In this document: piece after piece, positions 16,524 through 62,523 of the stretch
How positions within the stretch are numbered: position 1 is the stretch's first letter
Layout: every line of letters begins with the position of its first letter
Source: a virus
Virus record (IMG/VR): IMGVR_UViG_3300012988_000016
Span: 124,001 to 188,000 of that record
DNA length: 64,000 nt
Direction: 5' to 3' (one strand)
Notes under the pieces: model-generated
What the model was told of the DNA's origin: nothing
Seen by the model: only the letters and a program-made list of their open reading frames with translations
Databases searched by the model: none
Program-made: the position numbers and the translations under genes

Positions 16524-16736
16524 TTAGGTGCAGCTACATGCCTTGTCGGGGCCAGGGCCCTTATGTTGATCCATGCACGCCATCCCTTTGAGGTAGTAGC
16601 ACATGCTCCGACATCCCAACGGATCGAGCGCACGACTGCACCTACGGACGCAGTTGGAGCAATTTCGGTGAATTTCGGGTGGAGTGCTGGCCGGCCAGGC
16701 GAGACCGACCAACAGCATGATGGCAAGTGCTTTCAT
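16524..16736 (-). CDS. small secreted cysteine-rich protein
   Basis: 70 residues. MKALAIMLLVGLAWPAS is a good Sec signal peptide. The mature part has eight cysteines in about 45 residues, suggesting a disulfide-stabilised periplasmic peptide. It overlaps the stop of the CCA-enzyme gene by four bases. No homologue recognised; an anti-host or envelope role is possible but unproven. Confidence 0.65.
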   Translation of the reverse strand: MKALAIMLLVGLAWPASTPPEIHRNCSNCVRRCSRALDPLGCRSMCYYLKGMACMDQHKGPGPDKACSCT

Positions 16737-17884
16737 GGAACCTCGTAAAGGGCTTGGATTTGGAGTTCCTCGGCAGTGATTGAGGGATTTTTCAGTACTT
16801 TCAGTCTAGCTCGACTTACCGCTTCACCAATGGCAGGCCCGCTCGCACCCGTGTCTTGGATGAATCGTAGTGTATCGAAGGGTGGTTTGAGGAACTTTTG
16901 GTAGAGGGCATCGAGCTCCTGATCGTTCCTAGTGAGCGAATGCTCCCAGAGTAGACGGTACTCTTGATCACTGAGTTGATGTCCTACCATCTGAGGGCTG
17001 GTGAGTTGCATCAACTTGAGCAAGGTCCTGGTATCTTGGATCGTTTGATTGATGCCTCGGCGCATTCGTCCGCTTGGCACCATATCGAACACGATCCTAA
17101 GTAGGCCCAAGTGGGCCATCATATCCAAAGCAAGCTGAACCTGCTCCTTCGGCAAAGCTAGGATCTTGTCGATAAACACCATTGCCACCACTTCATAGGG
17201 TAGCCGGCGGATCTCTTCCGCCTTTGATTTGAAAGCCTCCCAAGTTCTGGGGTTGGGGGATAGCTGGTACTTGACCAGAAAACGGATTCCTCGAAGGATA
17301 CGGGAAGGATCCTCGTCAAAGGTTTCTTCCGGATGCATGGGGGTCCGAAGAACCCGCTCCTTCAAGTCCTCAAGGCCGCCCAACAGATCGGTGATGGGAG
17401 CTTCAAATGGGGATTGGTCAAGCTGAGTCACAACGTTGACGTCATAGAGACACCACATCAACGTATTCACCGAATAGTCGCGTCTCTCAAGATCTTGGCG
17501 AATCGTTCCAGGCTGGACCTCGGACGGCTTGTGACTGTCCTTCTTGGACTTGTCGTACTTTTCCTGACGGGCAGTGACAATCTCGATCTTTTGACCCTTG
17601 AGATCTACCCCACGGTAGACGAAAGATTCTTGAATCGGCCCAATGTGCACCACACCATACTGATCCGCATGGACCGCCAGGCCCAGACGGCCCGCCACCG
17701 CTTCGCCCAATGTGAGGGCGTTCTTCCCGTTGCGGGTCTCCACCACCACATCCAAGTCTTTGATCGGCAGTCCTAGGACGTGATCTCTGACCGCCCCACC
17801 GACGATATAGCTTTGGGTTCCCATGTGGATCAGCTGAGCCTGTTCGGCAATAAAGCTCGCCAGTGCTTCTTCAGGAGTCATCAT
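16733..17884 (-). CDS. cca: class II CCA-adding enzyme / poly(A) polymerase-type nucleotidyltransferase
   Basis: 383 residues. YIVGGAVRDHVLG is the GG-vRD nucleotide-binding motif, DLDVVVE the catalytic DxD (Asp43, Asp45), IEIVTAR the third strand, RRDYSVNTLMW and then DPSRILRGIRF the neck-region signatures of tRNA nucleotidyltransferases. It would add or repair the 3' CCA of tRNA, or act as a poly(A) polymerase. Its position two genes from an RNA ligase supports RNA repair. Starts 17884 or 17881. Confidence 0.88.
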   Translation of the reverse strand: MMTPEEALASFIAEQAQLIHMGTQSYIVGGAVRDHVLGLPIKDLDVVVETRNGKNALTLGEAVAGRLGLAVHADQYGVVHIGPIQESFVYRGVDLKGQKIEIVTARQEKYDKSKKDSHKPSEVQPGTIRQDLERRDYSVNTLMWCLYDVNVVTQLDQSPFEAPITDLLGGLEDLKERVLRTPMHPEETFDEDPSRILRGIRFLVKYQLSPNPRTWEAFKSKAEEIRRLPYEVVAMVFIDKILALPKEQVQLALDMMAHLGLLRIVFDMVPSGRMRRGINQTIQDTRTLLKLMQLTSPQMVGHQLSDQEYRLLWEHSLTRNDQELDALYQKFLKPPFDTLRFIQDTGASGPAIGEAVSRARLKVLKNPSITAEELQIQALYEVP

Positions 17885-18155
17885 CTTTGACCTCGATTGG
17901 GAATCGTTCCTTGTGCTGTTTGGACTTGGACTTCAGTTCAGGAATCAGTTTTTTCACAATCTCATCTGCCAGACCCCGAAGCATCAGCGCTTCCTTATCT
18001 TGGGATCGGCCAAAAGCTTCCAATGACTTGTCCTTGATAAACTTGGCCGCTATCTCTACCCCATGTTCCTGTCCCTCCAGCCAGCGCTGAGTTGACAGAT
18101 TGTCGAGGCTGTACTGCTTGCCTTGATCGTCTTTGACGATAGTGTCACGGCTCAT
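17871..18155 (-). CDS. hypothetical charged protein
   Basis: 94 residues, highly charged and helical, lying between the RNA ligase and CCA-enzyme genes and overlapping both (4 and 14 nt). The tight coupling suggests a partner of the RNA-repair enzymes, but there is no recognisable domain. Confidence 0.7.
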   Translation of the reverse strand: MSRDTIVKDDQGKQYSLDNLSTQRWLEGQEHGVEIAAKFIKDKSLEAFGRSQDKEALMLRGLADEIVKKLIPELKSKSKQHKERFPIEVKDDDS

Positions 18156-19219
18156 TCTTCATATCTCAGCAAGAAGTCAGGGTTGATGGCCTTGAAAGAG
18201 AGTCTGCCGATTTCTGGGTCGTTCTCTTCATTGTAGGGGCGGATCACCAGTCCTTCACGATGAACCTTGTCGTTCAAGCGGGACTTCCCTTTGCTCAGCT
18301 CGACCAATTGGTCTACCGAGTGATCGAGGGTCAGATTTCCCAACCAGGGCACCATCTGAAGGCCAACCGATTGAGTGACCGCCAAGCAGGTGTCCAAACT
18401 GACCAGATGAGTGCCGGCCGCCCCATCATTGATCTTCAGAACGTTGAACACTCTGAGCTGCGGCTTATTGAGACCGTAGCGGTTCTTCTGGATGCCAGGG
18501 CCGATAATCTCCCCCTGGATGGCGTACCAGCAGCCATCTGCCACCGAAGCAGCCCGAAGCAGAGGCAGGATCCCCATCTCACGGACCACCCGACAGATGG
18601 TGTTTTGAGGGTCATCGGTGTGGAACCACAGGGTACGACCACAGACGCCTTCTTGGTCACCGTAACAGAATACGGTGGCGCTGCTACCGTCCAGTTTCTC
18701 GGTCATGTACATCTGTTTGCCCTGATGACGAGCCAACAGATTTTCCAACACCTGGACGCGGGTTTCATCCGTTTTGGGGATGAAGTCGGGGATATGACCT
18801 TTCACCACACCACTCAAGCAAGATGGCAAGGGAGGATCGTACTTGATGATGTCCAAAAGATCGGTCACATCGGACCCAACCTCTGTCGGGGCACCTTCCG
18901 GCAGGATACTGAGGGGGAAGCAGATGCCTTGCGACACCTGACCACGCAACTTGACGGTACGGATCCGGAAGCCGGCCCTCAAGAGGGTGTTGTCGCCTTC
19001 GATGATGGCCTGACGGAAGCAGCTTTTGCGGAGGAATTCAAATTCCGGCCGTTCGGGCAACAAGCTGTCCACCTCACAATACACGATCCGATCACCGACT
19101 TTCAGCTCACCCTTGCGGGCTACGACGTACCAACCCAGGATCTTGACACGTTCGATCGCATCGGCATTTTCGATCGGTTGGACCTCTTGGATGGTCTGGA
19201 TGGTGGCAAGTGTTCGCAT
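18152..19219 (-). CDS. RNA ligase, DraRnl/Rnl5 type
   Basis: 355 residues. The N-terminal 120 residues resemble the OB-fold that precedes the catalytic domain only in the Deinococcus DraRnl (DRB0094) type. The nucleotidyltransferase domain follows: EKLDGSS with the AMP-accepting Lys175 (motif I), GEIIGPGIQKNRY (motif III region), REGLVIRP (motif IV) and FKAIN (motif V), ending in LLRYEE. It would seal RNA nicks or breaks with ATP. CCGTTCTA lies 6 nt upstream of the ATG. Likely partners: the CCA enzyme downstream and the 2H phosphodiesterase at 30221. Confidence 0.9.
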   Translation of the reverse strand: MRTLATIQTIQEVQPIENADAIERVKILGWYVVARKGELKVGDRIVYCEVDSLLPERPEFEFLRKSCFRQAIIEGDNTLLRAGFRIRTVKLRGQVSQGICFPLSILPEGAPTEVGSDVTDLLDIIKYDPPLPSCLSGVVKGHIPDFIPKTDETRVQVLENLLARHQGKQMYMTEKLDGSSATVFCYGDQEGVCGRTLWFHTDDPQNTICRVVREMGILPLLRAASVADGCWYAIQGEIIGPGIQKNRYGLNKPQLRVFNVLKINDGAAGTHLVSLDTCLAVTQSVGLQMVPWLGNLTLDHSVDQLVELSKGKSRLNDKVHREGLVIRPYNEENDPEIGRLSFKAINPDFLLRYEE

Positions 19220-34046: not shown

Positions 34047-34253
34047 TCATTCTTGGTCTTTCCGTCGACCGCCCATATGACGAGGAGCCCAAGTGTTTGG
34101 GTGCTTCTTGTTAGGACCCCCGATTTCACGCCGGAGTTTGATCTTTCGGATCTGTTTGCTATCCCGTTTACGCATGGCCTGTGGGCTAGGGGTCTTGCCT
34201 ACCCACTCAGGTGGGATCTCGACCACCTTACCTCGACGGATTCTAGTCGTCAC
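34047..34253 (-). CDS. small very basic protein
   Basis: 68 residues from GTG 34253, which overlaps the kinase stop. Extremely Arg/Lys-rich (RKRDSKQIRKIKLRREIGG); could bind nucleic acid. Kept because of the coupling and clean codon use. Confidence 0.55.
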   Translation of the reverse strand: MTTRIRRGKVVEIPPEWVGKTPSPQAMRKRDSKQIRKIKLRREIGGPNKKHPNTWAPRHMGGRRKDQE

Positions 34254-36004
34254 TTGAGGCTCATCTGATAGGCCTTGTCGCCACGGATAAAGCCCGCTTT
34301 GCCGTTCAGCTTGATGAGCCGCATATCGTTGCCGATGGCCTTGTCTTCGACAATCTTGAGGCTGGTGGAATCCTTCTTGGCCGAGAAGGCTTCAATCTTC
34401 TCTTCTTCCGTCAAGCTGATGCAGACGCCATTCTGCAGGGTGATGAAGTTGAGCCCAGAGGGGGTGATGTCTTGAATGGTGCGCTGATCGTATGTCGAGA
34501 ACTTGTCATCGAATCGGAAGATCATACGATTGTACTTACCATTCAACGATCCCACCACCATCAGCACTCCGCCATCGAACTTGGCGTCCATGATTCGGTA
34601 GTCATCGAGTTCCAGCATACGCACTTGGAACCCCTTTCGGCTTTCAGGGAATAGGGACACGTAGGCGGCCCCCAGCATGCTCTGAATGGCACAGCCCTCA
34701 TAGAGCTGGGACGCTTGTTCCATCACGCCCGCCACCTTGTGAGAGGCTGTGACCAAGATCTCATCGTTCATTTCCAGGAACGACACTTCTCTGACCTCAG
34801 ATCCACACTTGATGTAGAACCGGTCGCCGCTCTTAGTTAGTGCGGTGGCTCGGATGTTCAACACCTCTTCTGTCTTCTTGGTGAAATTGATGAAGGTCAG
34901 ACGCTCCTGGAAGATATAGAGCCCTACAGGGTGGTTCATCTTCGGAGTGTGGCCCACATGGACCACCCCTGCTGGGATCTGTTTTGAATACAGAGTCCTG
35001 GTACCCACCATGGCCCTCCCCTCAGGTTCTTTCTTCGAATTGACTCCTGTCAGGTAGGCGACCGAGCCCAGATTGTTCTCAGAGTAGGCGGTGAGTTTCC
35101 AACCGTCGAAGTCTTGGAACAAGTTGATCACCAGCGCATCTGATAGGGTTTGGGCCACCACCACTGGAGCCACAACGATATGCTGACCTCCACGGGGGTC
35201 TGGAGGAGCCAGGCGTTTACCGTCTTCCAACACGGCCTTGAGCCATTCCCGATAGTGTTGGGGGATGACATTTAGGTCGTAGCAACACTTGGGGAGCCGC
35301 ACATCTGGCCGGAAAGCCGAGATGTTGTGCTTCATCCGGTACTCCATCCGCTGGTCTTTGGGGATGTGGTTGACCGGATCGTACCCGCCCTTGTAGGGGT
35401 GGATCCCGATGAAGAGCTGGAACGCCAACACTCCTAGCGAATACCAATCCGAGAGGGGTGAAAAATCCTTGGAGGCTACTGACCAATCTCGAACCGACGG
35501 CATGATGACCGTGGCTGGGAACATCTTGGTCTGATAACTGTCAACGTCGATCAGATAGACATCATCGTAAGTGTCTGGGACCAGCAGATTGAGCTCGTTC
35601 AGATCGACAACCAACACCCCAGCATCGTGAACGTTTTTGACATGCTGTTGGAGCTTGTACAGGATCTTGATGATGTGGTGATCGTCGATGTTGTTCCGAT
35701 CCCTATAAGCTCTGGTGAAGAGCTGGCAAAGGGCTGATGGGTTGTCAGGAACAGCTCGCATGTTGTAGCCGATGGGAGCGCTCGTCCCCGTACCATCAAG
35801 GATCAGGTCCTCTGGCTTGATCACATGGTCATCAGCGATCTTTAGCAGCTCATTGAACTTGGCCGAAGGCAGCATGTCCTTGGGGTTCGTGTAGATTTTG
35901 TAGGCCGTCCCTTTCTTGACGTAGACCGACGCCTGGCCGCCAGTAGCCACATAGTCACTCTGACTGAGGGTGATGGCCCCTTTACCTAGGATGAATACTT
36001 TCAT
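34250..36004 (-). CDS. serine/threonine protein kinase-like protein with C-terminal beta-propeller-like region
   Basis: 584 residues. Kinase motifs in order: glycine loop TGGQASVY (about 21-28), AYKIY with Lys36, catalytic loop VVDLNELNLL (Asp134, Asn139), metal-binding LIDVDSYQ (Asp153) and SDWYSLGVLAFQLF (subdomain IX). The HRD histidine is replaced by Val, as in several atypical bacterial kinases. Residues about 290-584 are beta-rich repeats, possibly a propeller sensor. It lies in one minus-strand unit with a PP2C phosphatase and near a vWA protein, the TerY-P triad composition. Confidence 0.82.
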   Translation of the reverse strand: MKVFILGKGAITLSQSDYVATGGQASVYVKKGTAYKIYTNPKDMLPSAKFNELLKIADDHVIKPEDLILDGTGTSAPIGYNMRAVPDNPSALCQLFTRAYRDRNNIDDHHIIKILYKLQQHVKNVHDAGVLVVDLNELNLLVPDTYDDVYLIDVDSYQTKMFPATVIMPSVRDWSVASKDFSPLSDWYSLGVLAFQLFIGIHPYKGGYDPVNHIPKDQRMEYRMKHNISAFRPDVRLPKCCYDLNVIPQHYREWLKAVLEDGKRLAPPDPRGGQHIVVAPVVVAQTLSDALVINLFQDFDGWKLTAYSENNLGSVAYLTGVNSKKEPEGRAMVGTRTLYSKQIPAGVVHVGHTPKMNHPVGLYIFQERLTFINFTKKTEEVLNIRATALTKSGDRFYIKCGSEVREVSFLEMNDEILVTASHKVAGVMEQASQLYEGCAIQSMLGAAYVSLFPESRKGFQVRMLELDDYRIMDAKFDGGVLMVVGSLNGKYNRMIFRFDDKFSTYDQRTIQDITPSGLNFITLQNGVCISLTEEEKIEAFSAKKDSTSLKIVEDKAIGNDMRLIKLNGKAGFIRGDKAYQMSLK

Positions 36005-36213
36005 GACAACTTACGCCTAAGAAATTGACCAAAAAAGACAAAGATAAGACAGAACCCAAACGCCACCAACCCCCCTATCAGAATGGGCCAAGCCAGCATT
36101 ATCACACAAGTCTCTAGGAAGTCGTTATCGTCAGGACTCTTAACGACTCCTGCCAACACGAGACTGACGATATAGCCCACCACATAGATTGTGATACCTA
36201 CAGATTCGGACAT
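36001..36213 (-). CDS. small two-helix membrane protein
   Basis: 70 residues with two hydrophobic helices (about 6-25 and 35-62) and a basic C-terminal tail. Overlaps the kinase start by four bases, so it is probably co-translated and may anchor the signalling proteins to the membrane. Confidence 0.7.
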   Translation of the reverse strand: MSESVGITIYVVGYIVSLVLAGVVKSPDDNDFLETCVIMLAWPILIGGLVAFGFCLIFVFFGQFLRRKLS

Positions 36214-36216
36214 TAG

Positions 36217-37074
36217 CTACTCCAGGTGGATGCCTGTCATCGAGAAATCGTCGGAGTGTTTCCAGCCGGTCTCTTGACAGAACTTCTGGAGGAATCGATT
36301 GCATCTTCGCTGGATGAACTCACCCGTCAGGCCCTTGAACTTTAGTAGCTCAGTCAGGACTGTCTCCAATGGGACCAGATCGCCATTTCGATCAATGAAC
36401 GACTCAACCCCATCGGAAAAAAGGATCACCAGATCTGTAGAGGCTTTGCCGTACACTCGATTCCAGCCAAGCTCGGCTTTCGACAAGCTTGACAGATTTT
36501 TGGTCTCGGTGTTCCGATTCCAGACCCCATCCTTTAGCCAGCCGTAAGTGGTCGTCATTACCTTGGCTTGATCCTGGTAGAACATCTCTCGATCCAGGTT
36601 CGTGGTGTATCGCAAGTAATACGGCATATTTTGCCCAAACGTGCGAACGTGGTAATCAAAGTTGCCTGTGGTGCGGTCTCGACTGACCACCACACCGTCC
36701 CCATGCCAGAAAACTCTGGCAAAATCTCCGCTGTAGGTCGCCATCAAAAGTGTGGCGTCCAAGGCGTACGAGGGGAGGCCTAAAGCTCTCACACCTGCCT
36801 CAGCGTCAGAAATGATGCGTTCTTGAGGATACCCTAGATACGGGATGTCTCGAATCTGACGTTGGGCGGCTCGCACCAAGATTCGGGCTCCAAAGTCCGT
36901 GTAGGGGCTGCCAGGCTTGGCAGGGTCTGGCTCTCCTGAGCAACCATCGGAAAGTACCGCATACTCGACCGTGTCCGATGAATCCCCGTGTTGAAACGTC
37001 TCCGAGCCGGCGATACAGTAGTCCTGACAGATTGTGTGGGACGACCCCATACGGAAGTAATAGTCAGTCGTCAT
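36217..37074 (-). CDS. PP2C-type protein phosphatase
   Basis: 285 residues. The Mg2+/Mn2+ aspartates of PP2C are visible: VLSDGCSG (motif 2), FWHGDG, LVILFSDGVESF (motif 8) and HSDDFSMTGI (motif 11), with CQDYC at the start as the opening motif. It should reverse the kinase encoded two genes downstream. Its start overlaps the upstream gene by 11 nt. Confidence 0.87.
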   Translation of the reverse strand: MTTDYYFRMGSSHTICQDYCIAGSETFQHGDSSDTVEYAVLSDGCSGEPDPAKPGSPYTDFGARILVRAAQRQIRDIPYLGYPQERIISDAEAGVRALGLPSYALDATLLMATYSGDFARVFWHGDGVVVSRDRTTGNFDYHVRTFGQNMPYYLRYTTNLDREMFYQDQAKVMTTTYGWLKDGVWNRNTETKNLSSLSKAELGWNRVYGKASTDLVILFSDGVESFIDRNGDLVPLETVLTELLKFKGLTGEFIQRRCNRFLQKFCQETGWKHSDDFSMTGIHLE

Positions 37075-37438
37075 TAGAAAACTCCGGATCGTTGGGGAAG
37101 AACTCAGAAATCAGCTGTTTTTCGAACTTCTCTAGAATGGTGTTCATCGTGTCGAGACGGCTGTGGACATCCCGTTCTCTCAGATATTCTGAGAGCATCT
37201 CCTTGGCCCGATGTTCCACACGCCAGGTCATCTGTTTCTCAAGCCGTTCGAAGTAATCTCTGAGCGAGACTTCAATACCGTCTATCTTGCACTCGACCGT
37301 AAGGATTTGATCCCTTGGGCTAGTGGCGGTGATCCCCAACTTCTCGAAAATGGAGCGATCTTCGCACAGGGCTGCCCATACGGCTCTGGCGAAGGTGTCG
37401 TCGCCCAAAGTCTCTGCGAATGTGATTTGGTCGGCCAT
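37064..37438 (-). CDS. hypothetical protein of the kinase/phosphatase unit
   Basis: 124 residues, acidic; the second half is a coiled helix. Sits between the vWA gene and PP2C gene, overlapping the latter. No domain recognised; a strong hairpin precedes it. Confidence 0.7.
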   Translation of the reverse strand: MADQITFAETLGDDTFARAVWAALCEDRSIFEKLGITATSPRDQILTVECKIDGIEVSLRDYFERLEKQMTWRVEHRAKEMLSEYLRERDVHSRLDTMNTILEKFEKQLISEFFPNDPEFSNDD

Positions 37439-37448
37439 AGGAGCCCTT

Positions 37449-37484
37449 GAAGGGCCCCCGAGGTTCGTTCCCCAGGGGCCCTTC
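37449..37484. terminator. strong hairpin between vWA and kinase/phosphatase genes
   Basis: Perfect 10-bp arms GAAGGGCCCC and GGGGCCCTTC with a 16-nt loop. On the plus strand it is followed by TTTT, on the minus strand by no T-run, so for the minus transcript it may be an attenuating or stabilising hairpin rather than a full terminator. Confidence 0.55.
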
Positions 37485-37491
37485 TTTTGGA

Positions 37492-38235
37492 TCAGAAGTT
37501 GATCGGTTGACTGGCTTGGCCAGACTTCAACGATTGTGACTGGCTGGAGATCGATTTGGAAACGAAATTGGCCACCTTGGCGAGCGTCTTCGGGGTGGCA
37601 TCGGCCGCTTCAACGTATTCGCGGATGTCGGCTTCATCCTTGAAACTCTGCAGGTAGGCGCCGATTCTAGGATCTTGAACATTGATGCCGATCAAGATGC
37701 TGACCAACGATTCCATCGCCTCGGTCGACATAGCTCGACCCAACGCTTCCTTGACCGATTTGCGGGTCAAGGTGGAGGTGTAGTCCTCTCCGTCTGTGAT
37801 GATCACCACCAAGCCGTTGACGTCGTATTCCTCGTCCACCAACTTCTTGCCGTACGTCGCCAAGGCGTCGATCACATTCACGCTGGCGTCGTACAGGTGC
37901 GTGGTGCCGCCTGGGCGCAGTACGTTGTCGTACTTGTCGACTTGGCAGTCCATCAGAGGACGAAAGCCATGCAGTTCCTCGATATGACTGTTGAACTTCA
38001 CTACCCGCAACAGAAGATTGTCCCTCCGCGGGGAGTCTTGGCAGCTCTTGATGGTGGATTTGATGGTCTCTTCGAGGTCCTTGGCGAAGGGCGCCACGCT
38101 GCTGCTCACGTCAACCAAGATGGTGACGATCGTGTATTCGGAGGCTCCCAGAGAGGTTGGCTTGATGCCAGAGAATTGGAATCCAGACCCATTGGTCTTG
38201 AAGGATGCCGCGTCGTCGTCATTGAAAATAGGCAT
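37492..38235 (-). CDS. von Willebrand factor A domain protein (TerY-like)
   Basis: 247 residues. The complete MIDAS metal site is present: VDVSSS (DxSxS), GGTTHLYDA (Thr) and ITDGEDY (Asp). The architecture, a vWA domain with short ends and no membrane helix, is that of TerY. In bacteria TerY-type vWA proteins are encoded with a PP2C phosphatase and a kinase, exactly the neighbours seen here. Confidence 0.87.
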   Translation of the reverse strand: MPIFNDDDAASFKTNGSGFQFSGIKPTSLGASEYTIVTILVDVSSSVAPFAKDLEETIKSTIKSCQDSPRRDNLLLRVVKFNSHIEELHGFRPLMDCQVDKYDNVLRPGGTTHLYDASVNVIDALATYGKKLVDEEYDVNGLVVIITDGEDYTSTLTRKSVKEALGRAMSTEAMESLVSILIGINVQDPRIGAYLQSFKDEADIREYVEAADATPKTLAKVANFVSKSISSQSQSLKSGQASQPINF

Positions 38236-38264: not shown

Positions 38265-39071
38265 TCAGGAAAGAACGTCCACTGTGGTAGTGAGCGTCAC
38301 GCCACGACCACGCATTTCCTTGAGGAAGTCCTCACCATATTTCTCGAACGAGGGGACGTTCGAGGTGGCGTCGACACAAAGCACCATCTTCTTGACCAAT
38401 TCTGGGTCCTTGAAGAAGGCTGAGTTGACCACGTCTCGGAAAGTGTTGGCCACACAATGGCTCAGCGCTTCACCGATCCAGATCACCATGTCGGCCTCAC
38501 TCAAAGTCTTGACCAACGGCTCGTTCAGCTGAGTGCTGACGTCGTCCGGATCCGGAACCTCAGCTTGGACGGCGCTGAAGTGTTCGGTCCAAGGATTGGA
38601 TCCCTTGGTGACCGTATCCTTGAAGGCGTAACGCTTGCGCTCCCAACCGTGAATGGCAGCGGAAAGGACGGGGTTCAGGTTGTGGCCCTCATCGCCGATG
38701 ATGCAATGCTCCGGCCAAATGACGTGTGGGTAGCGCTTGGTGGCCTCCAACGCCTTGAGGTAAGCGAGGCTACGCTCACGAGCCCCTTGCTTGTAGGTGT
38801 TGTATTTGCCTGATTCCATGTCAGCTGATGTGATCATGGTGAGGGGGGCCACCTGGTGGTTGTTGGCATCAACCCACCAGCGGGGATGGCTGATGTCGAT
38901 GATGTTGTGGGAATCCAGGGTGACGTGGATGTCCGAGATTTTGTCGGTGAGGCGTTCGATCATCTTGGCCCCACGTTTGACGTTTTCATCACCACCCTTG
39001 ACATAAAGGGCGCCATTGGGGTTGGTGAAATCGTTCTGATCGTCGATGCAGATTACCTGTACGTTTAGCAT
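38265..39071 (-). CDS. isochorismatase/nicotinamidase-like cysteine hydrolase
   Basis: 268 residues from ATG 39071. CIDDQNDFTNPNGALYV supplies the catalytic Asp of the family, VTLDSHN and WPEHCIIG the metal/substrate histidines, and IGEALSHCVANT the nucleophilic Cys. The DxHxxxH-type metal site of PncA is plausible (DSHNIIDISH), so nicotinamidase activity, the first step of NAD salvage from nicotinamide, is the leading guess; isochorismatase-type hydrolysis of another amide is the alternative. Confidence 0.83.
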   Translation of the reverse strand: MLNVQVICIDDQNDFTNPNGALYVKGGDENVKRGAKMIERLTDKISDIHVTLDSHNIIDISHPRWWVDANNHQVAPLTMITSADMESGKYNTYKQGARERSLAYLKALEATKRYPHVIWPEHCIIGDEGHNLNPVLSAAIHGWERKRYAFKDTVTKGSNPWTEHFSAVQAEVPDPDDVSTQLNEPLVKTLSEADMVIWIGEALSHCVANTFRDVVNSAFFKDPELVKKMVLCVDATSNVPSFEKYGEDFLKEMRGRGVTLTTTVDVLS

Positions 39072-39099: not shown

Positions 39100-39678
39100 T
39101 CATTGGAATCGCTCAAACTGAGAGAATTTGAGAGTCTCTTGAATGGCCCCATACACCGAAGGCAGTTCTTCGATCTGAAACCCTCTCAACAGACGTCCCC
39201 AATCTAGGGATGGATGGACGAGTTGAGTCTCAAGATGACTGAAGGCCATCGTGATGATTTTGTGGTGATCGAAAGCCAATTGGGGCAAGTCTTTGGTGGA
39301 AAACCACCTAGCTTCTTTGGCATCATCACGCCCCTCGATCGTCAGACGGTCGAGACAGACCAAGGTCATGAACGCTTCACTGAGGACTCGACCCCTAGGA
39401 TCGCGACCCACCCCAGAGAAGGCTCCCAGTGGACTGAGTTTCAGATCGACCGTAGTCTCTTCTTTGAGCTCACGAGAGACCGCGTCCACGGCTTCTTCAT
39501 CGATATGTACATAACCCCCAGGAAGAGCCCAAGAATCTTTGAAAGGGTCATCTCCTCGCTGGATGAGCAGGAGATGCAGCGCTTCTGAAGCTTGAGCTGT
39601 ATTGACCCCAAACACCACAGCGTCCACTGTGTGTCCCACCATGGGGTAATCGTAAGTGTATCGTTTGGCTTTCGGCAT
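39100..39678 (-). CDS. Nudix hydrolase (ADP-ribose pyrophosphatase/NrtR-like)
   Basis: 192 residues from ATG 39678, fixed by GGTGTA 9 nt upstream. The Nudix box is GGYVHIDEEAVDAVSRELKEET; the final G/U position is Thr-Val. The N-terminal strand and C-terminal extension (LPSVYGAIQETL, like the winged helix of NrtR) suggest the ADP-ribose/NAD-related branch. It is followed on the same strand by the nicotinamidase-like gene, consistent with NAD metabolism. Confidence 0.85.
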   Translation of the reverse strand: MPKAKRYTYDYPMVGHTVDAVVFGVNTAQASEALHLLLIQRGDDPFKDSWALPGGYVHIDEEAVDAVSRELKEETTVDLKLSPLGAFSGVGRDPRGRVLSEAFMTLVCLDRLTIEGRDDAKEARWFSTKDLPQLAFDHHKIITMAFSHLETQLVHPSLDWGRLLRGFQIEELPSVYGAIQETLKFSQFERFQ

Positions 39679-39687
39679 AGCCCCCAC

Positions 39688-42383: not shown

Positions 42384-43212
42384 TGATGACGATGAGTGGG
42401 ATGAATGGTGGGCCCTCTCCGAGAAGGAGGATCGGGAAGAGGAGGAAGCCTTGAGAATCCGTCGTGTCCAACCTTTATGGATGAGGCCCCTCCAGAACTT
42501 CGTTGTGGGTACTACTGTGTACCAGTGGTTTAAGATCGTGCTGGACTCCGGCACTTTGCAGTTCAGATCCTGTGGATCGTACCAATCGATAGAATTCCCT
42601 GATTGGTACGAGGACGAATACTCGGTCTTGGAGCAACTCCCTTCGGAAAACCGAGAATGGGAGTTCATTGAGTTTGCGATGGTGAACGGTCTGTCCCCCG
42701 GTCAGCCATTCTTGGTGGAATTCAGAGCGCCCACTTGGGAACGCACATCGTACGAATACGATGAGTATGACGTCAATTACCATTGGGATATCGTTCGAAG
42801 AATGCCCAAGACACTATTGGCGGCAGGTCTCAGTTGGGAACGGACCCTGAGAAGAATCGACGCCTACAAGGCGGCAGACGATAGGCAAAAACAACACTAC
42901 GAACGGCTAAAGTTAAAGCTTAGGAAGCACTGGACAGTGGAGGTCCACCATTGGCCTGGGCGCTTGGGATTGTACCTCATAGCGAAAATCCCAAATATGG
43001 ATTTTAGCGGACACCTCGCTTGTGGTATTGCTGAAAAGCCAGCGATAGACGATGGGGTGTCGTTGGCTTTCAAAAGTCTGTTGAAAGACTTTAAGCACAA
43101 ATATCCGGACCAAATCGGTGGAATCGAGCGACTATTGGGTCTGGCCCAGCAAACACTGGGATTGCAGTTGAATCAATGGGAATTACTTAGACTTGATGAG
43201 TCGTTCCGCTAA
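42376..43212 (+). CDS. hypothetical acidic protein
   Basis: 278 residues from GTG 42376, overlapping the Nudix stop. The N-terminus is strikingly acidic with tryptophans (SDDDDEWDEWW). No domain recognised. It converges with and overlaps the deoxyribosyltransferase-like gene by 30 nt. Confidence 0.7.
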   Translation: MSDDDDEWDEWWALSEKEDREEEEALRIRRVQPLWMRPLQNFVVGTTVYQWFKIVLDSGTLQFRSCGSYQSIEFPDWYEDEYSVLEQLPSENREWEFIEFAMVNGLSPGQPFLVEFRAPTWERTSYEYDEYDVNYHWDIVRRMPKTLLAAGLSWERTLRRIDAYKAADDRQKQHYERLKLKLRKHWTVEVHHWPGRLGLYLIAKIPNMDFSGHLACGIAEKPAIDDGVSLAFKSLLKDFKHKYPDQIGGIERLLGLAQQTLGLQLNQWELLRLDESFR

Positions 43213-43659
43213 TGAGATCGCCTGTGTGATCGTATCTTCCAGGGTGTTGGACAACGGAACACCCAACTTCTTGGCATAGTAGCGCTGATACGACACCTTG
43301 TCGGCTCCTGGAGGGGTGCCCAGCACTACCTTGCCGGATGCCTTCCAATACCCCCATTCGTCATTGGTCGTCAAAGCTGGCATCCCACCAGCCATATCTC
43401 TGGGGATCCAGAATAGGATGACGGTGCAGCGGGTCAGCCCCTCTGCCTCCCACTCGACTTGGCCATCATAGTCGTTCTTCCACACCCCATCCTCAGCCTC
43501 TGGGATCAAAACGTGACCATCGAAGGCTAGTTGTCGGAATATCTCCAAGGCGGCGGGCCGCCAACCTACTTGTGTAGCAGTCCTAGGAGTCGGACCGGCC
43601 AGAAATACGGATATTTTTGAATCTTGCGGGATTGGTTGAAAAGCGTAGACGGGATTCAT
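43183..43659 (-). CDS. nucleoside 2-deoxyribosyltransferase-like protein
   Basis: 158 residues from ATG 43659, fixed by GGTGTA 10 nt upstream. SVFLAGPTPR, VLIPEAED, CTVILFWIPRD and ALTTNDEWGYW with GKVVLGTP follow the fold of the Nuc_deoxyrib_tr2 family, which transfers deoxyribose between bases or hydrolyses deoxynucleotides. It could help recycle bases or handle modified ones. Confidence 0.8.
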   Translation of the reverse strand: MNPVYAFQPIPQDSKISVFLAGPTPRTATQVGWRPAALEIFRQLAFDGHVLIPEAEDGVWKNDYDGQVEWEAEGLTRCTVILFWIPRDMAGGMPALTTNDEWGYWKASGKVVLGTPPGADKVSYQRYYAKKLGVPLSNTLEDTITQAISLAERLIKSK

Positions 43660-43669
43660 TCCTTGACCA

Positions 43670-43675
43670 TACACC
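43670..43675 (-). promoter_or_regulatory. GGTGTA start element, divergent with a GGTGTC copy
   Basis: GGTGTA 10 nt before the minus ATG 43659. The plus strand has GGTGTC 9 nt before ATG 43695, making a near-palindromic divergent pair like the one at 27699. Confidence 0.5.
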
Positions 43676-46164: not shown

Positions 46165-47019
46165 ATGAAATTGATAGACGTTCTGTCTTCCCGAGTGGAA
46201 GACGTCAAGAAGCTGGTCTTCCAAGAAGACACAACGGTTCATGAGGTGTCCTACCTTCGGAAGGGAGACGGCAAAGACATTGTGGTGATCCCCACACAGA
46301 CCAATTGCCGTATGGGGTGCACTTTCTGTCATCTGACTGGTAACAACAGACCAACCCAGAATCTGTCCAGCGACCAAATGATAGCCTTGATCAAGGCGTC
46401 TATTCGTTACCAGCTGCCTGCCAACAAGACTCTGTTGATCAGCTTCATGGGGGCGGGAGAACCGTTGCTCAATGTCGAACAGGTGATCGAGACGGCCAAG
46501 TGTATGGGCGACACCAACGCGATGGGGTGGTACGACAATGTACGCTTCGCCCTAGCGACCATCATTCCAAGTCGGAAGTGCTTTGAACAGTTCAAACAAC
46601 TGGTGGGTCTGCACGGACTGCCTTTCAAGCTACACCTTTCGTTGCATTCGTTGGATGCACCGGCTCGTAAGAGTCTGATGCCCTCAGCCTCCCCCATCCT
46701 CGACTCTTGGAACATGCTTAAAGAGTATGCGAGCGATACTGGGCAACCAACAGAGGTGCACTATACTCTGATTGACGGTATCAACGACAAGGAAGAAGAC
46801 TTGGCTCGATTTGAGGCTCTGTCGGGGCGAGATGTGCCGATCAAGTTGCTCAGATTTGCTGAGAAAAAGCAGGAACCTTTAATGCATGGTTCATCTAGGA
46901 CGGCCCAATTCACCCTAGGATTGGAGCAACTCGGGTATCGTGTTGAGGTCTATAGTCCTCCTGGCCGTGATATTGGTTCTAGTTGTGGACAATTCATCGC
47001 AGATCAATACGTCGCATGA
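46165..47019 (+). CDS. RlmN/Cfr-like radical SAM enzyme
   Basis: 284 residues. CRMGCTFC (Cys48, 52, 55) is the CxxxCxxC [4Fe-4S] motif; MGAGEPLLN, LHLSLHSLDAPARKSLMP, VHYTLIDGIND and GSSCGQF are RlmN/Cfr signatures, the last holding the methyl-carrying Cys274. The family methylates A2503 of 23S rRNA and some tRNAs. Two oddities: the N-terminal accessory domain of RlmN is mostly missing, and the second catalytic Cys (E. coli Cys118, seven residues before the cluster) is Val41 here. Activity or target may therefore differ. Confidence 0.85.
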   Translation: MKLIDVLSSRVEDVKKLVFQEDTTVHEVSYLRKGDGKDIVVIPTQTNCRMGCTFCHLTGNNRPTQNLSSDQMIALIKASIRYQLPANKTLLISFMGAGEPLLNVEQVIETAKCMGDTNAMGWYDNVRFALATIIPSRKCFEQFKQLVGLHGLPFKLHLSLHSLDAPARKSLMPSASPILDSWNMLKEYASDTGQPTEVHYTLIDGINDKEEDLARFEALSGRDVPIKLLRFAEKKQEPLMHGSSRTAQFTLGLEQLGYRVEVYSPPGRDIGSSCGQFIADQYVA

Positions 47020-50086: not shown

Positions 50087-51880
50087 ATGGCACAGCAATT
50101 CAAAGTGAAAAAAGGCGCCCTAGGAGTCGTTCTCCTGGCCGTCATCTTCATCTTCGGCGGTCGTTACGCATACATGAACGGCTATTTCGGGGCGGCTTCG
50201 GCCGGTCCCGCGTCCGTTCCCCAAGTGGCGGCTCTTCCAGAGGCCGCCCCCACAGCCGCCGTCAATGCGGTGGCCCAAGTGGCGTTGCCCAGCAACACTC
50301 CCACGGCAGTCTCTGGTCCGGAAGTTCGCTCCTTGCTGATGGCTTGGAACAGCCAGATGGGCGAGAACTTCGCCAACGGCGGGCCGACCCCCACCCAAGG
50401 AAGCTTGATGGCCAAGCATGGGGTCAACCTGCACCTCATTCGCCAAGACGACTGCTCGGTCATGCAGACTCAGCTGATCGCTTTCGCCAAGGCTTTGAAG
50501 AAGGGCAACCCGAATCCGACCGAAGGCGCTCATTTCGCCTCTGTGATGGGTGATGGTTCGGCCGCTTTCATCGCCGGCATGTGGGACGAACTCAAGAAAT
50601 TGGGTGATGATTACGTTCCCGAAGTGGTCGGCAGTGCGGGCTACTCACGTGGTGAAGACAAGTTGATGGGTCCGCCCGAATGGAAGCAGAACCCCAAGGC
50701 TGCTCGTGGGTCCCTCATCAGCGGCTACCTCCGCGACGGTGACTGGAACATCGCCCTCAAGTTCGGTTCCGACAACGGGATCAAGAACAACCCCGACGAG
50801 AAGACCTACGATCCGGACGCCCTCAATTGGTTTGCTGCTAACGACTTCATCGAAGCCGGCAACAAGTACATCGAAGGCGTGTGTGAAGATCGTCCGGTTG
50901 TCATCAACGGCAAACGCAATGGTGAAACCAAGCACATCTGCATCAATGCAGTCGTTACTTGGACTCCTGGTGACGTCAATGTGGCGACCAAGAAAGGCGG
51001 GTTGGTTTCGATCGTCAGCACGAAGGAGTACCGCAGCCAAATGCCGAACACCATCATCGGCATCAAGAAGTGGAACCAGGACAATCGCAAGACGGTCGAG
51101 TCAATGTTGACGGCCATCTACGAGGGTGGAGATCAGGTTCGCTCTTATCCGGCCGCTTTGACCCGTGCCGCTCAGGCTTCCTGGGAGATCTACAACAAGG
51201 AGCAGGATCCGTCCTACTGGGAGAAGTACTACAAGGGTGTGACTGAGACCGACAAGCAAGGTCTGCAGGTTGAATTGGGTGGTAGCTTGGCCAACAATCT
51301 GCAGGATGTCCAGTATCTCTACGGTCTGATCCCGGGTTCGCCCAACATCTTCGGCGCCACCTACACGGTGTTTGGAAACGTCGTTCACCAGCAATATCCC
51401 AAGCTGGTTCCCAGTTTCCCGCCGGTCGAATCCGTCCTGAACGTCTCGTACACGGCCAACATCGTCAAGGCCAACCCCCAGATTGGTGGTCGGGCAGATC
51501 TTCCGTCCTACAAGGCGGCTCCGATCGAACGTAAGGTCAGCGATCGTTCCTGGGATATCTCCTTCGAAACCGGTAGTGCGACCTTCACCCCCAGCTCGAA
51601 AATTCAACTCACAGAGATGAAGAACGGCTTGGTGGTGGCCAATGACTTGGTGGTCGAGATTGAAGGTCATACGGACAACACTGGCAATCCGGACAACAAT
51701 CTGGCGCTCTCGCAGTCTCGTGCCAACGCCGTGAAGACGTGGCTCGTTCAAGCGGGTCTGGACCCAGATCGGTTCGTGTCGGTCAAGGGCTTTGGCGATA
51801 CCAAGCCGACTGCCACCAACGACACTGAGACGGGTCGTGCCAAGAACCGCCGCGTAGTGGTCAAGCTCGGAACCAACTGA
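50087..51880 (+). CDS. ABC-type substrate-binding protein fused to an OmpA peptidoglycan-binding domain
   Basis: 597 residues. An N-terminal membrane helix (GALGVVLLAVIFIFGGRYAY) and an Ala/Pro linker lead to a periplasmic binding-protein-like domain of about 370 residues (phosphate/NitT-TauT class by eye). The C-terminal 100 residues are an OmpA domain: IEGHTDNTG, NLALSQSRANAVKTWL and GRAKNRRV, which bind diaminopimelate in peptidoglycan. Fusion would tether the binding protein between inner membrane and wall. The permease and ATPase follow in the same operon. Bacterial proteins of this fusion type are known; in a phage context it is striking. Confidence 0.87.
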   Translation: MAQQFKVKKGALGVVLLAVIFIFGGRYAYMNGYFGAASAGPASVPQVAALPEAAPTAAVNAVAQVALPSNTPTAVSGPEVRSLLMAWNSQMGENFANGGPTPTQGSLMAKHGVNLHLIRQDDCSVMQTQLIAFAKALKKGNPNPTEGAHFASVMGDGSAAFIAGMWDELKKLGDDYVPEVVGSAGYSRGEDKLMGPPEWKQNPKAARGSLISGYLRDGDWNIALKFGSDNGIKNNPDEKTYDPDALNWFAANDFIEAGNKYIEGVCEDRPVVINGKRNGETKHICINAVVTWTPGDVNVATKKGGLVSIVSTKEYRSQMPNTIIGIKKWNQDNRKTVESMLTAIYEGGDQVRSYPAALTRAAQASWEIYNKEQDPSYWEKYYKGVTETDKQGLQVELGGSLANNLQDVQYLYGLIPGSPNIFGATYTVFGNVVHQQYPKLVPSFPPVESVLNVSYTANIVKANPQIGGRADLPSYKAAPIERKVSDRSWDISFETGSATFTPSSKIQLTEMKNGLVVANDLVVEIEGHTDNTGNPDNNLALSQSRANAVKTWLVQAGLDPDRFVSVKGFGDTKPTATNDTETGRAKNRRVVVKLGTN

Positions 51881-59706: not shown

Positions 59707-61023
59707 ATGTCGCAAGCAACTGACGAAATATACGCCAAAATACTCGATGACAGCGCACACATTGTAGTGATGGGGTTGGGCTACGTTGGTCTCCCCCTCG
59801 CAATAGAGTACGTTCGCTGCGGGTTCCAGGTCACCGGTCTGGACCCAGATGCAGCCAAAATAGCAAGTCTCCAGATGGGGGTGTCGTACGTTGATCGCCC
59901 CACTTCTGAGACGTTGCAAGCCATGCAGGAATCTGGACGCTTCAAGGCCACCATTGACCCGAGTGTGCTGGCCTATGCCGATATCGTGTTCATTTGCGTC
60001 CCTACCCCTCTAAGCAAAACTCGTGACCCTGACCTGTCGATCGTCAGGGAGGCGGTGGAGCAGATCGCCCAATATCAGCATAAGGGGATGTTGGTTGTGT
60101 TGGAATCAACGTCCTATCCAGGCACCACCCGAGAGCTGTTGGTCAATAGATTGACGCAAGGCTACCGATTGGGGTTGGACGTCTTTATCGGTTATTCTCC
60201 TGAGCGGATTGACCCTGGCAATCCCACCCACCATCTCACCAATACGCCCAAATTGGTGTCAGGCATCACAGAAGATTGTGCCCGTCTGACCAATCGGCTC
60301 TACCTGAAAATCAACGATCAGTTGACGCAGGTTAGCTCTCCAGAGGTGGCGGAGATGGCCAAAGTGTTGGAGAACACCTTCCGAGCCGTTAATATCGGCC
60401 TCGCCAATGAGGTGGCGCTGATCTGCAAGAAGTTGGGGGTGGATCCGTTCGAGGTCATTGAAGCGGCCGCCACCAAGCCGTTTGGATTCATGCCCTTCTT
60501 CCCTGGGCCAGGCTTGGGCGGGCATTGCATCCCAATCGACCCCCTCTACCTCTCTTGGAAGCTCCGAGGTCTCAATTCCCAGGCACGGTTCATCGAACTG
60601 GCCGATACGATCAACGGAGGGATGCCAGACCATGTAGTTGGTTGCTGCATCGAAGCTCTAAACAACCAAGGATTGTCGGTCAATGGTTCTCTTGTGTTGA
60701 TTCTAGGAGTGGCGTACAAGCCGGATGTGGCAGATATCCGTGAATCGCCTGTGTTGCCGATCATCCAGAAACTGGAACAGATGGGCGCTTGTGTGTCCTA
60801 TCAGGACCCCCTCATTCCTGAGTTCTCGGAGCACGGCCTTCAGATGACTGGCTGCAATCCTGTCAGCTACCACGATTGGGATTTGGTGGTCATCACCACT
60901 CCTCACAAGGAATTTGACCTAAAGAGAGTGATGGATGAGGCGTATTTGATTGTCGACACCAGAGGGGTCATGCGAGACAGTCAGAAGAGGCTGTTGACCC
61001 ATGAAAAGATCTTCCGAATTTAA
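59707..61023 (+). CDS. UDP-sugar (UDP-HexNAc) 6-dehydrogenase, WbpA/WecC family
   Basis: 438 residues. VMGLGYVGLPLA is the NAD-binding loop, ESTSYPGTT and SPERIDPG are family signatures, FFPGPGLGGHCIPIDP holds the catalytic Cys and GVAYKPDVADIRESP the C-terminal UDP-binding motif. PERIDPG favours the UDP-N-acetylhexosamine branch over UDP-glucose. It would make a uronic acid sugar nucleotide, perhaps for altering host surface glycans. No glycosyltransferase of that kind is nearby. Confidence 0.9.
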   Translation: MSQATDEIYAKILDDSAHIVVMGLGYVGLPLAIEYVRCGFQVTGLDPDAAKIASLQMGVSYVDRPTSETLQAMQESGRFKATIDPSVLAYADIVFICVPTPLSKTRDPDLSIVREAVEQIAQYQHKGMLVVLESTSYPGTTRELLVNRLTQGYRLGLDVFIGYSPERIDPGNPTHHLTNTPKLVSGITEDCARLTNRLYLKINDQLTQVSSPEVAEMAKVLENTFRAVNIGLANEVALICKKLGVDPFEVIEAAATKPFGFMPFFPGPGLGGHCIPIDPLYLSWKLRGLNSQARFIELADTINGGMPDHVVGCCIEALNNQGLSVNGSLVLILGVAYKPDVADIRESPVLPIIQKLEQMGACVSYQDPLIPEFSEHGLQMTGCNPVSYHDWDLVVITTPHKEFDLKRVMDEAYLIVDTRGVMRDSQKRLLTHEKIFRI

Positions 61024-62001: not shown

Positions 62002-62523
62002 ATGTCGCTAGGTATCTACGGTGGTAGCTTCGATCCATTCACCCTTGGTCATCTGAGCATCCTCAAGGGGGCGCTGAAGGTGTTCGATCGAGTCAAGGTG
62101 GCGATCGGCATCAATTCGGACAAGAAGGGGATGTTCACGTTCGAGGAACGGAAGCAAATGATTGAGCAATACATCGATCTGTACCGCCTTCATGGGGTGA
62201 CGGTCGATTGCTTCGAAGGTCTGCTGATTGACTACTGTCAGTCTCAAAGGACCGAGGAAGTCTACCCCACCATCATTCGTGGTTTGCGGGCCATCTCCGA
62301 TTTCGAGCAAGAGATGAAGATTGCCGACATCAACCATAAGCTGGACCATACCATCCAGACGATCTTCATTCCTGCCGAGGCGGGACATCTTTACGTCTCC
62401 TCCAGTACCGCCAAAGAACTGGCCAAGTACACCACACAGGAAGTTCAGCTGGCCGACTATGTGATCCCCAGTGTGGCGGTACAGTTGATCAACAGATCTC
62501 AGCCCAGAAGCACCTTGGCCTGA
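62002..62523 (+). CDS. coaD: phosphopantetheine adenylyltransferase
   Basis: 173 residues, close to the usual 160. GGSFDPFTLGHL is the HxGH-type nucleotide motif (usual 'GTFDPiTnGH'), IIRGLRAISDFEQEM is the diagnostic CoaD segment and SSSTAKELAK the closing ISSS motif. It makes dephospho-CoA from phosphopantetheine and ATP. Coupled to the ATP-grasp gene, so the two may act on one pathway. Confidence 0.9.
   Translation: MSLGIYGGSFDPFTLGHLSILKGALKVFDRVKVAIGINSDKKGMFTFEERKQMIEQYIDLYRLHGVTVDCFEGLLIDYCQSQRTEEVYPTIIRGLRAISDFEQEMKIADINHKLDHTIQTIFIPAEAGHLYVSSSTAKELAKYTTQEVQLADYVIPSVAVQLINRSQPRSTLA

Follow-up and report, generated by a model that had tools for sequence, protein, structure and literature searches.

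TerY-P triads, which comprise a TerY-type vWA protein, a PP2C phosphatase and a Ser/Thr kinase encoded in the order vWA–PP2C–kinase, occur in Ter loci, in CoCoNuTs and as stand-alone defence modules, and are associated with tellurite resistance and anti-phage defence. The same gene order is found in the triad of the Ter plasmid and in yegL-pphC-yegI of E. coli. A separate group of phage systems, NARP1 and NARP2, reconstitutes nicotinamide adenine dinucleotide (NAD+) in the infected cell; these are defined by Adps plus Namat, or by NadV plus nicotinamide mononucleotide (NMN) adenylyltransferase. Here we describe a locus on a stretch of viral DNA of 64,000 nucleotides (the window; positions 124001–188000 of the 308,895-base IMG/VR virus record IMGVR_UViG_3300012988_000016), in which a TerY-P-like triad is accompanied by a constant fourth gene for a predicted nicotinamidase. 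We propose, with a probability of about one half, that the four genes form a mobile module that couples reversible Ser/Thr phosphorylation to NAD+ salvage. The proposed purpose, restoration of NAD+ during infection, is that of NARP1 and NARP2, whereas the predicted chemistry is nicotinamide deamidation followed by the Preiss–Handler route rather than Adps/Namat or NadV, with a kinase/phosphatase/vWA relay added.

The original prediction, made from the window alone, had placed a kinase, a PP2C phosphatase and a vWA protein together on one strand at 34250–38235; all of these genes were found there, and the strand is the minus strand. They encode a YegI-type Ser/Thr protein kinase (34250–36004), with a kinase domain at residues 1–270 and an all-beta, propeller-like C-terminal domain at residues 288–584; a PP2C phosphatase (36217–37074); and a TerY/YegL-type vWA protein (37492–38235) with a conserved Ser-rich C-terminal tail. 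Two smaller genes assigned to the same unit, for a 70-residue membrane protein (36001–36213) and a 124-residue protein (37064–37438), are indeed present, but each is a singleton in neighbourhood clustering with no relative in any fetched locus, and both are probably inserts outside the core. What had been missed was the nicotinamidase gene (38265–39071, minus strand), directly upstream of the vWA gene and no less constant than the triad, together with its NAD+-salvage surroundings, and for this reason the likely function changes. Its open reading frame extends to 39152, but translation probably begins at the ATG at 39071, so the unit reaches upstream to this position; a Nudix gene that takes the unit as far as 39687 probably belongs to it as well.

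Scans of IMG/VR with the single window kinase or PP2C sequence returned no relatives, and alignment-based scans were needed. A kinase alignment (75 loci) and a nicotinamidase alignment (80 loci kept) converged on the same type of locus, and collapsing near-identical loci gave 94 non-redundant viral groups, on contigs of up to 619 kb. All four genes were present on one strand in 88 groups, ordered nicotinamidase–vWA–PP2C–kinase in 79 and PP2C–kinase–nicotinamidase–vWA in 6. The triad is thus conserved in related phages. Neither the vWA nor the PP2C gene was a query in the successful scans, so their presence does not depend on the way in which the loci were retrieved. We conclude that the arrangement does not reflect chance. 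The nicotinamidase is the gene closest to the vWA gene (median gap 39 bases); all intergenic gaps were below 150 bases in 19 of the 88 groups, the others having genes inserted, as with the two orphans of the window. Pairwise distances of the four families were correlated (rho 0.58–0.71, against a permutation maximum of 0.25), as expected for joint inheritance, to which shared phage ancestry contributes. A tblastn search of INPHARED identified three huge phages that carry these genes: LR745208 (485 kb), LR756511 (595 kb) and LR756500 (462 kb). In LR756500, nicotinamidase, vWA, PP2C and kinase form a compact run. We found no description of a nicotinamidase, kinase and vWA protein together in phages in the open-access papers that we searched (including PMC7824862, PMC9503650, PMC13232231 and PMC7162821). 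Two loci, L031 (12211–12960) and L110 (15653–16402), carry a second vWA copy right after the kinase.

The fourth gene encodes a protein of isochorismatase fold whose best NCBIfam match was the nicotinamidase model PRK11609 (2e-10), and a profile of 75 relatives matched yeast Pnc1 (2h0r) at 1e-21. In the alignment to 2h0r, the catalytic Asp/Lys/Cys and the Asp-x-His...His metal ligands that PncA and Pnc1 have in common were all aligned, and D37, D80, H82, H149, K183 and C233 were invariant in 75 of 75 relatives. The module proteins are longer (about 265 residues compared with 180–216), have a central insertion and are always linked to the triad. On these sequence criteria we assign the gene to the PncA/Pnc1-type nicotinamidases, with predicted conversion of nicotinamide to nicotinic acid.

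We clustered all genes within about 10 kb of the module to define neighbour families. The commonest non-core neighbours were nicotinate phosphoribosyltransferase (NAPRTase; 35 groups), Nudix/NrtR-like proteins (28) and NAD synthetase (27), followed by a metallophosphatase (14), NADAR (13), a NadD-like nucleotidyltransferase (12) and tRNA-His guanylyltransferase (10). Across whole module-bearing records, NadE was found in 28 of 33 and the NAPRTase family in 24 of 33, the latter by PF04095, which alone cannot separate NAPRTase from NadV. The distance from the module to NadE was at most 20 kb in 16 of 27 records, compared with 3.6 expected at random (maximum 12 in 20,000 draws), and that to NAPRTase in 15 of 23, compared with 3.25 (maximum 11).

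Several observations weigh against a link to NAD+ salvage. The proximity figures are not exact probabilities, as related phages are non-independent; a Preiss–Handler gene lies within 10 kb in only 45 of the 94 viral groups; and the window's own record has no match to NadE or to NAPRTase (PF04095), either because the record may be an incomplete fragment or because the host may supply both. Of 7 huge phages retrieved as a comparison set, 3 also encoded NadE, which weakens NadE as a module-specific marker, so that its presence alone is weak evidence and its proximity stronger. In the 735-kb phage LR756501 (423103–429441), a weak nicotinamidase match lies about 5 kb from the NadE gene. The neighbourhood also bears on a different role for the enzyme. 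Nicotinamide is an established product inhibitor of the NAD-consuming sirtuins, ADP-ribosyltransferases and NADases, and a nicotinamidase that removes it could tune ADP-ribosylation rather than NAD+ supply. Nearby ADP-ribose-handling proteins (NADAR, macro/PARG-like, KptA and Nudix) would fit such a role, but they are outnumbered beside the module by the biosynthetic genes NAPRTase, NadE, NadD and Prs, and we consider this explanation quite unlikely.

We compared the triad proteins with their named counterparts using hhalign. Against E. coli, the kinase matched YegI with 98.9% probability, the PP2C matched PphC with 89.7% and the vWA protein matched YegL with 91.3%; against the Ter-plasmid triad the values were 49% for the kinase, 93% for the PP2C and 90–95% for the vWA protein. 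Among the named relatives found, YegI comes closest to the phage kinase and has matching DxN..N and IDxDSxQ motifs, and the vWA protein resembles those of TerY-P triads in its MIDAS and in ending with a helix followed by an SIS..SQ-like stretch. There are also clear differences. The E. coli locus has no nicotinamidase, and the C-terminal part of YegI matches a helix-hairpin-helix whereas that of the phage kinase is a propeller. By the definition in PMC11090510, TerY-P kinases are fused at the C terminus to a zinc ribbon or OB fold. Neither was present on the window kinase, whose C-terminal half is all-beta and propeller-like in an AlphaFold2 model. A domain search found no TerY-C metal-binding domain in the window vWA protein, although it is present in that of the Ter plasmid, and TerD-family proteins were absent from all 33 module-bearing records. 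The PADLOC TerY and PP2C models did not match the window vWA or PP2C protein at E values up to 1, but these models also miss the vWA and PP2C proteins of the Ter plasmid, which makes the comparison a weak one.

Because the hhalign links and the shared gene order come without TerD, TerY-C or zinc-ribbon/OB fusions, the module is best classed as a separate TerY-P variant rather than as a Ter locus; its constant nicotinamidase, its NAD-salvage surroundings and its occurrence mostly in huge phages set it further apart. The likeness to a TerY-P triad in the original prediction therefore holds for homology and order, whereas a Ter stress locus is not supported. Homology and an order common to the Ter-plasmid and E. 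coli triads would also be expected of a Ter-type stress or metal-response triad to which the nicotinamidase is a neighbour without functional link. Given the missing Ter components, and a nicotinamidase as constant as the triad and closer to the vWA gene than any other, we regard such a triad as very improbable, and NAD+ salvage explains the locus better than Ter stress. An ABC–OmpA operon had further been suggested as the effector. We rejected this candidate, as full-length relatives occur in only 2 of 32 other records, and in each of these the distance to the module exceeds 100 kb. The long window protein with a C-terminal OmpA domain (50087–51880) has full-length relatives at 52% identity in an IMG/VR record and 39% in LR756500, far from the module.

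Profile searches and alignments indicated that all three triad proteins retain their active sites. The PP2C protein exceeded the curated cut-off of Pfam PP2C_2 (E=7e-9) and the vWA protein that of PF00092 (E=4e-5), whereas the kinase fell below the gathering score of PF00069 (E=1e-5). PADLOC, PHROGs and NCBIfam offered no specific family for any of the three. The variant catalytic loop noted in the kinase is real and typifies the family, with VVDLNELN in place of HRDLKxxN and IDVDSYQ in place of DFG, and Lys36, Asp134, Asn139 and Asp153 are retained in 98–100 of 100 relatives. The kinase model (predicted local distance difference test (pLDDT) 94, predicted template modelling score (pTM) 0.91) comprises a kinase half followed by an all-beta half of about 28 strands. 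Its best fold match in the Protein Data Bank (PDB) was LRRK2, a protein that has both a kinase and a WD40 propeller, and most of the remaining top matches were Ser/Thr kinases. PP2C residues D18, D43, G44, D126, D221, D275 and D276 were invariant in 88 of 88 relatives, and the vWA metal-ion-dependent adhesion site (MIDAS; D42-x-S/T-x-S46, T112, D148), described as intact in the original prediction, was intact in 82 of 82.

The vWA tail is almost as well conserved as the MIDAS. Its consensus is SxSISSQSQALGTGGxSQxLxF, its serines S226, S228, S230 and S233 are kept in 78–81 of 82 relatives, and its Ser/Thr content is twice that of the remaining protein. In the vWA model (pLDDT 92) the tail has lower confidence than the fold, and YegL and TerY proteins have a similar Ser-rich end after the last helix. 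These features make the tail the leading candidate for a phospho-acceptor or docking site. A PDB sequence search with the vWA alignment gave no match, and a fold search returned generic vWA and integrin I domains.

The module is not confined to phages. Acidobacterial contigs from metagenome-assembled genomes (MAGs), with chromosomal flanks, have the order NrtR, nicotinamidase, vWA, PP2C, kinase. In one of these, L176, NrtR carries a winged helix; in another, L161, PARG-like and NADAR-like genes lie upstream (the NADAR call and the L161 winged-helix call were made by eye). Among 297 sampled genomes of the phylum of L176, only its own genome gave a full-length kinase match. On an 801-kb plasmid (plasmid 2) of the cultured soil isolate Variovorax sp. 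SRS16, a Nudix gene of NrtR length adjoins nicotinamidase–vWA, with NAD kinase and a macro-domain protein, and beyond insertion sequence (IS) elements lie PP2C–kinase–pncB, NADAR and NAD+ synthase. On a further contig, L172, the module is preceded by Prs and followed by NadE. This 1.36-Mb contig (JAFDWS010000002) is labelled Armatimonadetes. A terminase-like match lies about 45 kb from its module, a RusA-like open reading frame (by eye) is close by, and the contig may hold a huge prophage or phage sequence. The kinase tree requires at least 10 virus/genome changes, although some short 'genome' contigs in it may be mis-binned phage DNA, and we conclude from the tree that the module moves between phages and cells. 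Three Chloroflexota MAG contigs (L187, L188 and L191) have the order kinase–nicotinamidase–vWA, with no PP2C match within the fetched stretch. Distant kinases of the module type with PP2C nearby and no nicotinamidase match occur on MAG contigs of Bacteroidaceae, Prevotellaceae, Ruminococcus and Clostridia (L192–L196), perhaps representing other TerY-P-like systems.

Such mobility would also suit phage-borne defence against other phages, a viral counterpart of TerY-P in which the triad would sense a second phage (superinfection exclusion) with the nicotinamidase as effector or metabolic helper. In bacteria, TerY-P-like modules protect against phages on their own, as stand-alone systems (PMC11090510, citing Gao et al. 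2020), and a prophage kinase–phosphatase module mediates defence (PMC11341870). However, the window proteins match neither PADLOC model, no nuclease or toxic effector is conserved beside the module, and the constant partner is a salvage enzyme. This is the most serious rival to NAD+ salvage, and we consider it unlikely.

Taking the observed module, its order, active sites, co-inheritance and NAD-gene neighbourhood together, we infer a phospho-acceptor, a partner, a trigger and a counter-defence role as follows. The nicotinamidase would convert nicotinamide to nicotinic acid, which NAPRTase, NadD and NadE, encoded by phage or host, would rebuild into NAD+. Kinase and phosphatase would control whether the module is phosphorylated, with the Ser-rich vWA tail as the most likely site, and the vWA MIDAS would then gate a partner, which is probably either the nicotinamidase or a different salvage enzyme. 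Huge phages could in this way maintain NAD+ in the course of infection, also where nicotinamide is set free by host NADase defences; sustaining NAD+ is probably what the module does. More tentatively, and with rather less confidence than in the coupling itself, the module may represent a third type of phage system for NAD+ reconstitution, one that is widespread among huge phages and in which Preiss–Handler salvage from nicotinamide is switched by a TerY-P-like relay whose propeller would sense ADP-ribose or the depletion of NAD+. The vWA-tail phospho-switch may, by extension, also operate in bacterial TerY-P triads. Because the four-gene cassette occurs in about ninety huge-phage lineages, in the same order and often beside NAD+-salvage genes, our results suggest that huge phages bring with them a means, controlled by phosphorylation, of rebuilding NAD+ in the cells they infect. 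This would be a possibly unreported salvage route, at a time when NAD+ depletion is recognized as a main bacterial defence. In about ninety phage groups and several bacteria the triad is tied to a single defined enzyme and a single pathway, which makes its output measurable as nicotinamide and NAD+.

Other genes of the window include possible accessories. The Nudix protein (39100–39687, minus strand) resembles the NrtR sensor domain (PF00293, E=1e-15; NtrR model, 9e-21 across the Nudix part) and is 36% identical to the Nudix-winged-helix-like protein adjoining the Variovorax nicotinamidase; a profile search detected no NrtR_WHD or winged-helix DNA-binding domain in it, and it is likely accessory. 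A nucleoside 2-deoxyribosyltransferase-like protein (43183–43674, minus strand), 43% identical to a protein of the Variovorax module locus and 45% to one of LR745208, belongs to a cluster present in 4 groups and is a possible accessory. The phage nature of the window's record rests on its IMG/VR class and phage-type genes, since it has no match to the phrog_2 terminase model. A radical-SAM protein (46165–47019) resembles RlmN/Cfr 23S rRNA methyltransferases, far under the family cut-offs. The window also encodes a CCA-adding-like enzyme (16733–17884), a DRB0094-type RNA ligase (18152–19219), UDP-glucose dehydrogenase (59707–61023) and a CoaD-like pantetheine-phosphate adenylyltransferase (62002–62523).

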